The notes under the pieces are model-generated. The model worked only from the letters and a program-made list of their open reading frames with translations. It made no database searches and was not told the DNA's origin. From a virus, in the IMG/VR virus record IMGVR_UViG_3300031841_003053, positions 1 to 28,375 of that record: a stretch of 28,375 nt of DNA; one strand, 5' to 3'. Below, in pieces: positions 1,762-26,373 of the stretch (positions are counted from its first letter, which is position 1; each line of letters starts with the position of its first letter). Made by a program: the position numbers and the translations under genes.

Positions 1762-2629
1762 GTTGTTCAATCTCTCTTGTATCTAGTTCGTAATTGCTTC
1801 TATACTCATTATTAATTTTAATAACTTTTTCCAGTAATGTCAACTGATTACTGAATTTTGTAAGTGCTGAAGTGTCTTTAGGAAAACATGCACCTCCAAA
1901 CCCTTGCTTACCATCAAACCCTGGTACTTTTGTATGTGATGTGCCGATACGTTCATCCAGGCCAATACCTCTCATTATATTAGACCAATTTACTTTGGTA
2001 CTGCCATATTCTTTAATCATATCATAAAATTGATTAAAGAATGTAACCTTTGTTGCAAGGAATGTATTAATACCATATTTAATAAAAGAGGCTTCTTCAG
2101 CAGAACATGATATTGTATTACAAGGTTCGCAAATGGAAAAATTATTATAAATCTGAGAAGCTATATTAACATAAGTTGGATGTCCTCCAAATATCATCAT
2201 TTGAGGATTTACAAATTGTTCGTTAGCATTTTTTTCTGTAAGGAATTCGGGATTATATACTACATTTTCATACTGACCAAATCCAAATTCCTTTACAACG
2301 TCTGGTGGGGCGGTTGATTTAACTATAACAAGGGTACCTAAGGTCTGGTGCTTTTCCATTTTTTGATTAATTTTTTTTATAGTTTGAGTTAATAATGAAC
2401 TATCTACATACCCGTCAGGGCCCATTGGGGTGGGAACACAAACAAAGTATGCTAAAATACTAGGATCCTCGTGTAACCTAAAAGGTTCAAGTCTATCGTA
2501 TTGATAAGGAGGTTTAAAATCATATTTTGGATCAACAATAATTTTTTCAATATTAGGATGGGTAAATCCATAATCAACAGCCTTACCAACAAAGCCATGA
2601 CCAATAATTACAATTTTCTTTTTATTCAT
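1712..2629 (-). CDS. UDP-glucose/GDP-mannose dehydrogenase family protein, lacking the C-terminal domain
   Basis: An NAD-dependent sugar-nucleotide 6-dehydrogenase homologue of 305 aa. The Rossmann motif is GHGFVG at residues 10-15. Later motifs are CVPTPMG (64-70), VKSTAPP (103-109), NPEFLTEKNA (126-135), the central helix with K184 and N188, and the active-site motif GFGGACFPKD (243-252), with C248 as the presumed thioester cysteine. Known family members of about 390-450 aa continue into a third domain that completes the sugar-nucleotide site. Here the chain stops soon after the central domain and ends in an acidic Gln/Glu/Asp-rich tail that overlaps the uvsX start. Activity as a classical UDP-glucose dehydrogenase is therefore uncertain. 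It follows the nucleotidyltransferase gene with a four-base ATGA overlap, so the two are probably co-translated. Confidence 0.9.
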   Translation of the reverse strand: MNKKKIVIIGHGFVGKAVDYGFTHPNIEKIIVDPKYDFKPPYQYDRLEPFRLHEDPSILAYFVCVPTPMGPDGYVDSSLLTQTIKKINQKMEKHQTLGTLVIVKSTAPPDVVKEFGFGQYENVVYNPEFLTEKNANEQFVNPQMMIFGGHPTYVNIASQIYNNFSICEPCNTISCSAEEASFIKYGINTFLATKVTFFNQFYDMIKEYGSTKVNWSNIMRGIGLDERIGTSHTKVPGFDGKQGFGGACFPKDTSALTKFSNQLTLLEKVIKINNEYRSNYELDTREIEQHVNYGQTEEEQQDQDN

Positions 2630-9539: not shown

Positions 9540-9722
9540 TTAGCGTTTCAGTTTTGCAACTTGCATCATGCAATTCTTAGCTAGGTCGTGTTGACCTTGA
9601 CTTGCAAAATGAGCAGCTGCTCTACTATATCCAACTACTTCGCACCAGTTCATAAAACCAGCCCAAAGTTTTTGGAATCTTGAACGATGATCGATTGTGA
9701 CTGTATCTACTAAAAAAGCCAT
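9540..9722 (-). CDS. Small protein paired with DUF1127 protein (60 aa)
   Basis: A 60-residue protein I cannot name. Residues 13-60 form two likely helices: SRFQKLWAGFMNWCEVVGYS and RAAAHFASQGQHDLAKNCMM, with a basic C-terminus KLKR. The helix-turn-helix-like layout and basic charge are similar in style to small DUF1127-type proteins of Alphaproteobacteria, but the defining DUF1127 segment is absent. Its ATG overlaps the TAA of the DUF1127 gene (TAATG), so both should be translated together. It is the last gene of the Hsp20 cassette and is followed by a hairpin. A host-derived stress or RNA-binding role is a guess from context. Confidence 0.72.
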   Translation of the reverse strand: MAFLVDTVTIDHRSRFQKLWAGFMNWCEVVGYSRAAAHFASQGQHDLAKNCMMQVAKLKR

Positions 9723-9946
9723 TAGACAAATCCTTTTAGGTTAGGATTAAAAGGAGCGATAAGATGTGATTGTTTCATATCTGTATCTTGTCTGGCAATA
9801 GAATAGATATCGCCTCTTGCAATACCAATATCGTTCAATTCTGCATCAGTTAGCCTACGCAATTCGTTTTCAGTTTGACGAACGGCTTTGGCCATCTGAT
9901 AGTCGTTAATCAGCTTCTTGAAGAAGCTCTTTAGTGTCTGTGTCAT
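9722..9946 (-). CDS. DUF1127 (YjiS-like) small protein (74 aa)
   Basis: A 74-aa protein with a clear DUF1127 segment: ELRRLTDAELNDIGIARGDI at about residues 28-47, preceded by a basic helix (TLKSFFKKLINDYQMAKAVR). DUF1127 proteins are small and often arginine-rich, abundant in Alphaproteobacteria and present in gammaproteobacteria; some bind RNA and act in stress or phosphate responses. They are not part of the usual T4-like gene set. The ATG at 9946 lies 41 bases inside the end of hsp20 and has GAGGA upstream, so it is translated from the hsp20 message. Its presence points to a host, probably alphaproteobacterial, as the source. The exact role in infection is unknown. Confidence 0.85.
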   Translation of the reverse strand: MTQTLKSFFKKLINDYQMAKAVRQTENELRRLTDAELNDIGIARGDIYSIARQDTDMKQSHLIAPFNPNLKGFV

Positions 9947-10370
9947 TTGTTAATTCCTCGTAATGACCGATTTCGATTTTACGAGGACGCAGTTCTTCTG
10001 GGACTTCATATTTCAGCTCTACTGACAATACTCCGTCTACTAAGTCTGCTCCGTTTACTTTTACGTGTTCGGACAGCCTAAAGGTGCGTTTGAACTTCTT
10101 GGTGGAAATACCACGGTGAATGTATTCGCGACCCTTACTTACATGTTCACCTCTAACAGTAAGTGTACGATCCTTAACTTCAATGTTAAGTTCGTCCTTA
10201 CTAAATCCAGCCACGGCTAATTCAATTAGGTAATCGTGATCACCCGTTCTCAGAATATTATGTGGGGGATAGTTATCTGATGAATGTTTAGCTACATAAT
10301 CCAGTTCACTAAGTAGATGATCAAATCCAACAAAAGATGAACGTGGGAATAGTGATTGTACGCCTGTCAT
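9906..10370 (-). CDS. hsp20: Hsp20 / IbpA-type small heat-shock protein
   Basis: A 154-aa alpha-crystallin-domain chaperone that binds unfolding proteins without ATP. The domain is recognisable from DHDYLIELAVAGFSKDELNIE through the RTFRLSEHVKV segment to VDGVLSVELKYEVPEE, and the C-terminal anchor is PRKIEIG (the I-x-I motif used for oligomer assembly). Length is normal for bacterial IbpA. Small Hsp20 genes are common in T4-like cyanophages and pelagiphages. The start ATG 10370 has an AGGAG sequence seven bases upstream, which can pair with a CUUGCU element in the leader (see 10377-10394). A T4-type late promoter and a sigma70-like promoter lie upstream. Confidence 0.96.
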   Translation of the reverse strand: MTGVQSLFPRSSFVGFDHLLSELDYVAKHSSDNYPPHNILRTGDHDYLIELAVAGFSKDELNIEVKDRTLTVRGEHVSKGREYIHRGISTKKFKRTFRLSEHVKVNGADLVDGVLSVELKYEVPEELRPRKIEIGHYEELTNDTDTKELLQEAD

Positions 10371-10376
10371 GTTTAT

Positions 10377-10424
10377 CTCCTTTATACAAGCAAGAAAGTT
10401 ATGCGACCGGTCTTCCGCATCGCA
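10377..10424 (-). promoter_or_regulatory. Candidate ROSE-like RNA thermometer in the hsp20 leader
   Basis: Read on the minus strand, the leader can form two hairpins. The first has TGCGA (10424-10420) pairing with TCGCA (10406-10402) plus an inner CGG/CCG around an AAGA loop. The second pairs CTTGCT (10394-10389) with the Shine-Dalgarno AGGAG (10381-10377) across a seven-base loop, leaving one unpaired G. A U-U-G-C-U element opposite AGGA with one extra G is the core of ROSE thermometers that control hsp20 genes in Alphaproteobacteria. Short for a ROSE element and untested. Confidence 0.42.
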
Positions 10425-10428
10425 ACAT

Positions 10429-10470
10429 TATTTATATTTAAATTATAATAGGATCTGGGCCATTAGTCAC
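10429..10470 (-). promoter_or_regulatory. Promoters for hsp20: T4-type late box plus sigma70-like site
   Basis: On the minus strand, TATAAATA (10436-10429) is an exact match to the T4 late promoter read by gp55, placed 58 bases before the hsp20 ATG. Slightly upstream, TATAAT (10447-10442) with GTGACT 17 bases further (10470-10465; four of six matches to TTGACA) forms a possible host-type promoter. The cassette may be expressed both early and late. Confidence 0.6.
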
Positions 10471-10495: not shown

Positions 10496-11221
10496 TTAAT
10501 CGATTAAATTATTTTTTATGGCTTTAAGAATTCTTTTACTTCTGTTACGGGATTCAAATAACTCATATAAACCTTTTAATTGACTTATACCCGAAACAGC
10601 GTGTTGATGAAAAGTACATGCAGCCTTTAAATTATCTAATTCATTAGTCATTTTAAATTCATGAAATTTTATTTTTTCCTTTGTATTAAATCTAATATAT
10701 GAAGTAATATCACCATGTCTGATACTAACATTACCTTCTTCATGTTTTTTTATTGCTGCTGTTACTATTGGTCTAAACCATCTACCAATGTCAAATTCTG
10801 CTGATATGGTATTAAAATGTTTTGTATAATCATTTGAGTGTAGATATGGATGTAATGTTGTTACTGTGAGGGGCTTATCCGCAAAAAATATTTTTGTATT
10901 ATGAAATTGAAATAAACCCAATTCACTTTCTCTCATATCAACGGATTGTGATGTATAATCCATAATTCTTTCATCGTTTGAATAAAAACCTCCGCTATAA
11001 TATCCAAAATCAATATCATAATTAAATTTCATAACATAACATTGTTTTAAAACATCAGTTGACGCTGGGCACCTCCGGAGCATAGATTGCTTATACCAAT
11101 CAGGAAGGTTTTTATTAAGTGATTCAATTTTAGTAAGTAAAAGATCAACAGAAAACTCTAAACCTGTTAGGTTATGTGATACTAAATTATGATACGATGC
11201 ATAATATACATTTATAGTCAT
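10496..11221 (-). CDS. Conserved hypothetical protein downstream of regA (241 aa)
   Basis: A 241-aa protein I cannot assign to a named family. It begins MTINVYYASYHNLVSHN and contains a CPASTDVLKQCYVMKFNYDI segment, an aromatic-rich middle (LGLFQFHNTKIFF), FDIGRWFRPIVTAAI, and a basic helical C-terminus ending SKRILKAIKNNLID. No membrane segment or signal peptide is seen. Proteins with a similar CPA...FDY layout occur, to my recollection, as unannotated genes in marine T4-like phages. Its ATG overlaps the regA stop by four bases (ATGA), so it closes the gp55-to-regA operon. About 125 bases of promoter and leader sequence for hsp20 follow it. Confidence 0.82.
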   Translation of the reverse strand: MTINVYYASYHNLVSHNLTGLEFSVDLLLTKIESLNKNLPDWYKQSMLRRCPASTDVLKQCYVMKFNYDIDFGYYSGGFYSNDERIMDYTSQSVDMRESELGLFQFHNTKIFFADKPLTVTTLHPYLHSNDYTKHFNTISAEFDIGRWFRPIVTAAIKKHEEGNVSIRHGDITSYIRFNTKEKIKFHEFKMTNELDNLKAACTFHQHAVSGISQLKGLYELFESRNRSKRILKAIKNNLID

Positions 11222-11589
11222 TTGTTTCCAATATTATATTTGGGACACAACTCCCACTCATCCTTTTCTTTAAACGGTAATATTTTAATAAGTCTTAAAG
11301 GAGCGCAGTCTGCTGCTTTGGATGTGTCCTGTATTTCGACTAACCCCCAATCACTCATTAGTGTAGCAATTGTGTTACGTCTTTGAATATCTGATTCTTC
11401 TAGATTAGCTTTTTTACCATCCAACATAAACAACTCTTTGAAGTGGACAATAAAGTAACGTCCTTGTTTATGTAAGATATGACATGATTGAAATAGTTTT
11501 TTATCTTTACGAGATGCTACACCAATACGTGTTAGTGTCTCTCTTACCTTTAAAAAATCTTCTGGATCATTTAAAGTCACTTCCAACAT
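11218..11589 (-). CDS. regA: RegA translational repressor
   Basis: The RNA-binding repressor of early phage mRNAs. The protein follows T4 RegA closely: MLEVTLNDPEDFLKVRETLTRIG, SCHILHKQGRYFIVHFKELF, RRNTIATLMSDWGLVEI, and near the end LPFKEKDEWELCPKYNIGN (T4: FKQKHEWKLVPKYTIGN). I chose ATG 11589, giving 123 aa, because T4 RegA (122 aa) begins at the same motif. A GTG at 11628 would add 13 unconserved residues and overlap the end of gene 62, with AAAGG pressed against the start codon. The Shine-Dalgarno for the ATG is weak, so the start is uncertain. Its place after gene 62 matches the T4 order 45-44-62-regA, where RegA represses these clamp and loader genes and itself. Confidence 0.96.
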   Translation of the reverse strand: MLEVTLNDPEDFLKVRETLTRIGVASRKDKKLFQSCHILHKQGRYFIVHFKELFMLDGKKANLEESDIQRRNTIATLMSDWGLVEIQDTSKAADCAPLRLIKILPFKEKDEWELCPKYNIGNK

Positions 11590-11614
11590 CTCTGTTGGGT
11601 TCCATTGAATTAAG

Positions 11615-11992
11615 TTAGCCTCTTCCACCTTTATTCACCTTCTGTTTTATTATAGTTATTTGTTCAGGTGATAGGAGATGAAGTATTTGTTTGGCTTTCT
11701 CATTATTATAGCCATAGTATTGTTTAATCACCTCAATATCACTCTCAGTTTCTGGTTTCATCCATTTCGAAAATCGTTTACGTTTTCTGATGGTATTTAT
11801 CAAAAAATGATATTGAAGCTTATTATCACAATGGTGGTATTGATTCATGACATTGGCCAAGACCGCCGTGTCATTAAAGTAGCTTAATGACCTATTGACC
11901 ATAAAACTATTATATGACTTCTCAGCCATATCATCAATCATAATATCTTTTTTAGTATCATTGATACTAGTAACATAATTAAAAGGGTTCAT
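11615..11992 (-). CDS. 62: gp62 clamp loader small subunit
   Basis: The small, non-ATPase subunit of the clamp loader that, with four gp44 subunits, opens the gp45 ring. At 125 aa it is shorter than T4 gp62 (187 aa), which matches the short form of marine T4-like phages. Recognisable stretches are DMAEKSYNSFMVNRSLSYF and LQYHFLINTIRKRKRFSKWM (T4: FNYLMAAVPRGKRYGKWAK), followed by a helical tail. The ATG overlaps the glutaredoxin stop (TAATG). Gene order gp44, glutaredoxin, gp62, RegA preserves the T4 order with glutaredoxin inserted between the two loader genes, which supports the call where similarity is modest. Confidence 0.9.
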   Translation of the reverse strand: MNPFNYVTSINDTKKDIMIDDMAEKSYNSFMVNRSLSYFNDTAVLANVMNQYHHCDNKLQYHFLINTIRKRKRFSKWMKPETESDIEVIKQYYGYNNEKAKQILHLLSPEQITIIKQKVNKGGRG

Positions 11993-21434: not shown

Positions 21435-21977
21435 TTAGCGTAGTTCAAAATGTGAGAATCTAAAGCTGCAGGGAAATACAATGTATTGTACATCTCCACT
21501 AGTAGATTCTAAAGCCATGTCCCCCACTGATGTTGGAATACAGTCAATATATTTAATTGTTCTGGATGTGTTGTTGTGGCTACTTAATATCAATAATGTG
21601 ATATCACAATAAGTAGGTATCTTTGAAGATCTTCTGTCTGTAGCAGAGATTTCATTCTCTTCTACTAATCTATTGGCCCAATTATACATTTCTGTATATG
21701 AGTTAAGATCTTCGTCTACAATTACCATTGTAGTAAGTTCACCATATGTAAGTTTATCTGCAGCGAAAGGTACACCAGATACTCTCTTGTATGGTACCTC
21801 TACGGGATTAACTGATACACTGGGATGCAATACGGATTGAGCAAAAAATTCTAAGTTGGGATAGTTCTTGCGATCCACCACTAACTTAAAAGCAGAAGGC
21901 TGCAAAAGATTAAGGTTGCTTAGACCTGAACCTTGTGTATCCATTTCTACTGATATTGAAGGATTTAATGTAGGCAT
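21435..21977 (-). CDS. Tail-tube-like virion protein (gp19 fold, paralogue)
   Basis: A 180-aa protein that resembles phage tail-tube proteins: QPSAFKLVVDRKNYPNLEFFAQSVLHP, then a DKLTYGELTTMVIVDEDLNSYTEMYNWANRL core, and a C-terminal strand pair YIDCIPTSVGDMALEST and VFPCSFRFSHFELR. This layout is shared with T4 gp19 and related tube-initiator proteins; the bona fide gp19 gene seems to end at 28342. It is found among recombination genes but has an exact late-promoter box (TATAAATA, 22012-22005) 27 bases before its start, which fits a virion component made late. It might form a baseplate-proximal or terminal tube ring. Confidence 0.72.
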   Translation of the reverse strand: MPTLNPSISVEMDTQGSGLSNLNLLQPSAFKLVVDRKNYPNLEFFAQSVLHPSVSVNPVEVPYKRVSGVPFAADKLTYGELTTMVIVDEDLNSYTEMYNWANRLVEENEISATDRRSSKIPTYCDITLLILSSHNNTSRTIKYIDCIPTSVGDMALESTSGDVQYIVFPCSFRFSHFELR

Positions 21978-22004: not shown

Positions 22005-22012
22005 TATTTATA
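22005..22012 (-). promoter_or_regulatory. T4-type late promoter for the tail-tube-like gene
   Basis: An exact TATAAATA on the minus strand, 27 bases upstream of the ATG at 21977, in the 40-base gap behind the HAD-family gene. It is the expected target of gp55-directed RNA polymerase. Confidence 0.7.
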
Positions 22013-26365: not shown

Positions 26366-26373
26366 TATTTATA
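26366..26373 (-). promoter_or_regulatory. T4-type late promoter before gene 68
   Basis: An exact TATAAATA on the minus strand in the short gap between genes 67 and 68, 15 bases before ATG 26350. It would give a very short leader and drive genes 68, 21, 22 and 23, whose products are needed in large amounts. Confidence 0.75.

Follow-up and report, generated by a model that had tools for sequence, protein, structure and literature searches.

The described system closest to the leader analyzed here is the ROSE element of Pseudomonas ibpA, a two-hairpin structure for which the melting of hairpin II has been measured along with its consequence for ribosome binding (PMC3669281). The ROSE elements of Rhizobium, Bradyrhizobium and Caulobacter hsp genes share the core motif and the small heat shock target with the phage leader, and are built from three to four hairpins; the role of the 5' hairpins in ROSE is not fully understood (PMC3669281). 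In phages, known RNA thermometers include those of lambda cIII, of SPbeta blyA (a fourU element) and of a gut-phage sigma70 gene (PMC11182007). They are phage-borne like the present leader, but they are not ROSE elements, govern other genes and are devoid of the U(U/C)GCU core, with the cIII thermosensor working by alternative structures (PMC11182007). Small heat shock proteins have also been described in cyanophages (PMC3827213, PMC5028025), i.e., the same class of phage gene, and we find that the cyanophage copies carry UCGCU leaders; the cyanophage phylogeny of these proteins makes no mention of thermometers or untranslated regions (PMC3827213). An earlier note on the present DNA had proposed a ROSE-like thermometer before a phage hsp20 gene and knew of no such element in a phage. 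Regarding ROSE, we likewise found no report in the open-licence literature, where absence is not proof, whereas thermometers of other kinds are established in phages (PMC11182007).

The hsp20 locus and the fold of its leader

The window, i.e., the whole 28,375-base virus record, derives from an aquatic T4-like phage, its genes including a family-B DNA polymerase, a regA-type repressor and other T4-type genes. The hsp20 gene, whose identity is given by its Pfam HSP20 domain, is followed by an overlapping DUF1127 gene which likely belongs to the same operon, and the gene neighborhood is thus the one originally described. In most loci of group A, which comprises 80 loci fetched by the Hsp20 protein alone (79 with an intact leader), DUF1127 adjoins hsp20 as judged by tblastn. 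The features discussed below are the following.

9722..9946, minus strand: DUF1127 gene, overlapping the 3' end of hsp20
9906..10370, minus strand: hsp20, small heat shock protein of 154 aa (Pfam PF00011, E 5.6e-18; phrog_432)
10362..10367, minus strand: codons 2-3 of hsp20, ACAGGC, alternative partner of GCUUGU (10386-10391)
10370-10368, minus strand: AUG start codon of hsp20
10426-10371, minus strand: hsp20 leader of 56 nt, GUUGCGAUGCGGAAGACCGGUCGCAUAACUUUCUUGCUUGUAUAAAGGAGAUAAAC, directly before the AUG
10377..10381, minus strand: Shine-Dalgarno (SD) sequence AGGAG
10376..10395, minus strand: hairpin II, ROSE-type SD lock UCUU[G]CUU-GUAUA-AAGGAGA, found by ROSE_3 alignment, RNAalifold and the leader minimum free energy (MFE) fold
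10388..10395, minus strand: anti-SD strand UCUUGCUU with the ROSE core UUGCU and bulged G 10391
10402..10424, minus strand: hairpin I, UGCGAU[G]CGG-AAGA-CCGGUCGCA, with bulged G 10418 directly 5' of a C-G pair
10429..10436, minus strand: TATAAATA, a late-promoter-like box by its likeness to T4 late promoters

At 37 C, the MFE fold of the 56-nt leader consists of two hairpins (-13.5 kcal/mol, with a z-score of only -1.88). The pairing of CUUGCU with AGGAG across a seven-base loop, with a single unpaired G (10391), belongs to this fold just as the earlier note had drawn it, and U-A pairs on both sides, also present in the MFE fold, lengthen the helix to 7 bp and reduce the loop to 5 nt. The AGGAG is hence closed inside hairpin II in the predicted leader fold. 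The further upstream hairpin that had been announced is present as hairpin I, and the span first assigned to the element, 10377-10424, covers it; with the late-promoter-like box, the region extends over 10371-10436. As in ROSE elements, a U(U/C)GCU motif is imperfectly paired with the SD in the 3'-proximal hairpin, leaving one unpaired G, in 52/52 distinct group-A leaders, at least one additional hairpin (hairpin I) stands upstream in the 5'UTR, and the gene that follows is a small heat shock gene. The four consecutive U opposite the AGGA of the SD which mark fourU elements are absent, the anti-SD strand being UCUUGCUU. Both hairpins have a local motif in common, the bulged-G arrangement of hairpin I being the one also seen in the ROSE core of hairpin II.

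Conservation and distribution of the element

At the gathering threshold, an Rfam scan returned no match in the leader. Under permissive settings, ROSE_3 (RF02523) was by far the best match, its alignment spanning the entire model at 36.5 bits (E 2.3e-6); as this lies below the ROSE_3 gathering score of 43 bits, we class the leader as ROSE-type and not as ROSE_3. With this best match, below the gathering score as it is, and with a motif common to alphaproteobacterial hsp20 genes, the ROSE-type identity put forward earlier largely holds. The same permissive scan missed the cyanophage, pelagiphage and dnaK leaders presented below. Compared to the Pseudomonas ibpA ROSE_3 element (PMC3669281), the phage leader is alike in having two hairpins, about 60 nt, U(U/C)GCU opposite the SD, a bulged G, an unpaired AUG and a small heat shock gene downstream, and hairpin I of the Pseudomonas consensus contains a UGC/GG bulged-G motif as does the phage hairpin I. 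It differs by preceding a phage gene, by a late-type promoter instead of a sigma32 one, by its A/U-richness and by its score and, in group A, by an anti-SD strand which can also pair with codons 2-3.

All 79 intact group-A leaders contain CTTGCTTG followed by AGGAG. When 52 distinct group-A leaders were submitted to RNAalifold with no structure supplied, both hairpins and both bulged Gs were recovered, together with six pairs showing compensatory changes, five in hairpin I and one, the outermost pair, in hairpin II. Standard pairs filled 97.1% of the cells in these 52 leaders (shuffles, 87.5%; slid controls, 45-63%). Cells with double changes numbered 85, whereas shuffles gave 30.5, with 0/500 reaching the observed value, and slid controls no more than 13. 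Across group A, the SD/anti-SD core shows no variation, so that no covariation is possible there within this group; the covariation proposed as a check in the earlier note is therefore found in hairpin I and at the foot of hairpin II but not in the core. An all-clade alignment built with the group-A model was gappy and was left out of the covariation analysis.

Among loci which were not fetched by the motif (loci retrieved by DNA pattern, being motif-selected, were left out), 139/145 hsp20 starts have U[UC]GCU no more than 20 nt upstream of the SD, versus 3/322 other SD-bearing starts, and two of the three non-hsp20 genes concerned sit upstream of an hsp20 which itself has no motif. Unbiased searches, one with a cyanophage and one with a pelagiphage Hsp20, returned leaders nearly all with UCGCU or UUGCU before the SD. 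The motif is found in unrelated phage families and, among named phages, in C48C1, Melnitz-3, Sinorhizobium phage Phosso, Pelagibacter phage HTVC115P and S-SSM5, and 204/213 distinct phage leaders have an upstream hairpin of type I, with its bulged G immediately before a C-G pair, as opposed to about 4% of dinucleotide shuffles. S-B68 and the type represented by L338, L342, L345 and L367 are without U[UC]GCU; by eye, the SD of the S-B68 and L338 types still seems to be covered by a bulged-G hairpin whose flanks have changed in a compensated manner, UUUUAC[G]CU-UUCG-AGGUAAAA and AUAAC[G]CU-UAACGG-AGGUUAU, respectively. As far as sequence can tell, a ROSE-type element is near-universal before phage hsp20 and is not peculiar to this phage. 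Pseudomonas phage Y7 (OQ572409, an unverified record) reaches 69 bits with ROSE_3 but was excluded from the phage cases, its leader resembling that of host ibpA. In one other hsp20 leader (L167:3482-3578, minus strand), hairpin I and the ROSE hairpin appear to be separated by an additional hairpin.

Matches to the group-A model also precede dnaK in three contigs, L456, L539 and L452 (E 6e-11 to 2e-9); these contigs were fetched by the hairpin II pattern, and only hairpin I is independent evidence there. The ROSE-like two-hairpin leaders on these phage-type contigs are located as follows.

L452:711-777 and L452:2682-2748: leaders before dnaK and hsp20
L539:10557-10621 and L539:8590-8651, minus strand: leaders before dnaK and hsp20
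L456:1143-1215, minus strand: leader before dnaK

In L452 and L539, the gene order is dnaK, hsp20, clpS among phage-type genes, with a second ROSE-like leader before hsp20, a predicted phage chaperone operon under thermometer-like leaders. ROSE-like leaders were also seen before small phasin-like genes (L341:1192-1250; L350 near 1238; L446:2801-2869, minus strand; L583; L652:966-1027, minus strand), which in L341 and L350 are just upstream of hsp20; the element may thus move to the first gene of an operon. In L570, a contig classed as viral, such a leader precedes a peroxiredoxin-like gene near 2472-2535 (minus strand) with a weak model score (E 0.1).

Putative late promoter and probable host origin

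The TATAAATA box ends 55-62 nt before the ATG in 37/53 distinct group-A leaders. Three such boxes are present in the window, a count not above chance, and the promoter claim hence rests on position. The two others (22005-22012 and 26366-26373, minus strand) lie just upstream of the minus-strand gene starts at 21977 and 26350, as late promoters would. It appears from this positioning that a T4-type late promoter drives hsp20 and, if the box acts like a T4 late promoter, the hsp20 RNA would begin at the foot of hairpin I.

Most of the closest cellular Hsp20s are alphaproteobacterial. Since the same motif is present in 62/67 of the leaders of these nearest cellular relatives, the ROSE module is probably host-derived. 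The best cellular match, with 73% identity, belongs to a Rhodobacteraceae bin (L370) and has a phage-type leader; this sequence may be a phage contig. The simplest reading of these comparisons is that phages acquired hsp20 together with its ROSE leader and then swapped the promoter. Moreover, the presence of the element before nearly every phage hsp20 examined suggests that phages have adopted a host temperature switch.

Proposed mode of action and competing readings

We consider it probable that this short leader with its two hairpins acts as a ROSE-type RNA thermometer, which came with hsp20 from a proteobacterial host, probably an alphaproteobacterial one, and has been maintained by selection. 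The comparisons above speak for the position of the promoter, for hairpins I and II and for the pairing between SD and anti-SD, while repression, melting and heat induction of the phage leader are inferred by analogy. In the proposed mechanism, the late promoter would start the mRNA just before hairpin I. At low temperature, UCUUGCUU, around its bulged G, pairs with the SD in hairpin II and would keep translation low, and hairpin I, a stable and covarying 5' cap with the same bulged-G motif, would probably guide folding or protect the mRNA. Upon warming, hairpin II would melt and free the ribosome site, and Hsp20 and the DUF1127 protein, encoded in one operon, would be made when infection meets heat stress. 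Aquatic phages seldom meet the 42 C of laboratory tests, and this test temperature is therefore no guide to the working range of the leader.

One reading that competes with simple melting concerns group A, in which GCUUGU could pair either with the SD or with ACAGGC, so that the balance between both states would set translation; the pairing with codons 2-3 would enclose the SD and the AUG in a loop, to be compared with the alternative structures of lambda cIII. The earlier note had counted a more stable fold leaving the AGGAG open as evidence against a thermometer. According to the nearest-neighbour model, in which the noncanonical ROSE pairs are not represented, the isolated leader is closed, with a group-A median probability of an open SD of 0.000 at 25 C and 0.004 at 37 C, versus 0.020 and 0.057 for other genes; with the first 20 nt of the coding sequence, the median at 25 C rises to 0.160, versus 0.015 for other genes, and the model prefers the pairing of the anti-SD strand with codons 2-3, so that a fold of the kind named in the earlier note is in part what this model predicts. 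The alternative helix is predicted to be 2.6-3.2 kcal/mol more stable than the ROSE hairpin (at 25 C, -7.3 versus -4.4 kcal/mol), and its pairing outperforms controls with synonymous codons in 26/27. GGC occupies codon 3 in 55/55 distinct group-A sequences, as compared to a share of 16% among the Gly codons of the window, a conservation for which shared descent may account in part. Consistent with such a switch, ACAGGC occurs in another frame in L135 and is ACAAGC in L190, and in Melnitz and L340/L361, GCUUA pairs with UAAGU/UAAGC. However, UCGCU phages have no alternative helix and, in a predictive test on phages with CTTGCTTA, a strong one was found in only 24/104 (7% in shuffles). The pairing was therefore dropped as a general trait of phage ROSE and regarded as a group-A feature, and we deem it unlikely that a two-state switch is what sets translation.

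The leader could also mainly bind the small heat shock protein, which would repress its own synthesis until titrated by aggregates, thereby sensing aggregation instead of temperature. There is a precedent for this in E. coli, where IbpA binds its own 5'UTR and represses translation, an activity which requires Arg93 and is abolished by the R93K substitution (PMC10474464). The Arg aligned to IbpA R93 is kept in the Hsp20s of cyanophages, pelagiphages, Melnitz and Phosso as well as in the cellular relatives, and host IbpA could still act on the phage leader. In group A, however, 52/52 distinct Hsp20s have Lys at this position, i.e., the very change that kills repression in E. coli (PMC10474464), which makes self-repression unlikely there; in the Arg-bearing phage groups (cyanophages, pelagiphages), self-repression may operate. 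Altogether, we hold aggregation sensing to be quite unlikely as the main function of the leader. A phage translational repressor such as RegA has been considered as well, with regA (phrog_242) lying at 11218-11628, two genes upstream of hsp20. RegA acts at the ribosome sites of T4 early mRNAs, whereas the hsp20 promoter is late-type, and RegA sites are not known to us to require such a two-hairpin structure, whose conserved form is also found in bacteria and in pelagiphage HTVC115P; a leader serving as target of RegA or another repressor and not as a thermometer is thus very improbable. As for an ordinary weak structure or a chance complementarity to the SD with no regulatory role, many phage leaders do fold somewhat and the SD/anti-SD pairs are short. 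Nevertheless, this explanation is contradicted by the sequence comparisons, namely the specificity for hsp20, the covariation, the ROSE_3 E-value and the occurrence in unrelated phage families, and is hardly credible.

The ROSE-type thermometer thus being the preferred reading, phage hsp20 would be a place for which we found no earlier report, in the open-licence literature, of this otherwise well-known bacterial element, with a possible new variant in group A. A broader picture, in which phages at large carry host-derived ROSE elements on chaperone genes (hsp20 and some dnaK), with late promoters, a two-state switch and an Hsp20 without the IbpA-type Arg in group A, is tentative and, taken as a whole, held with less than even confidence. 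The hundreds of natural ROSE variants, with their wide covariation in hairpin I, lend themselves to the study of thermometer tuning and of the role of hairpin I. If the thermometer reading is true, viruses of abundant aquatic bacteria would own temperature-controlled translation switches, copied from the heat-shock genes of their hosts and placed under viral timing, and the leader would connect warming with the replication of marine phages in a testable way.
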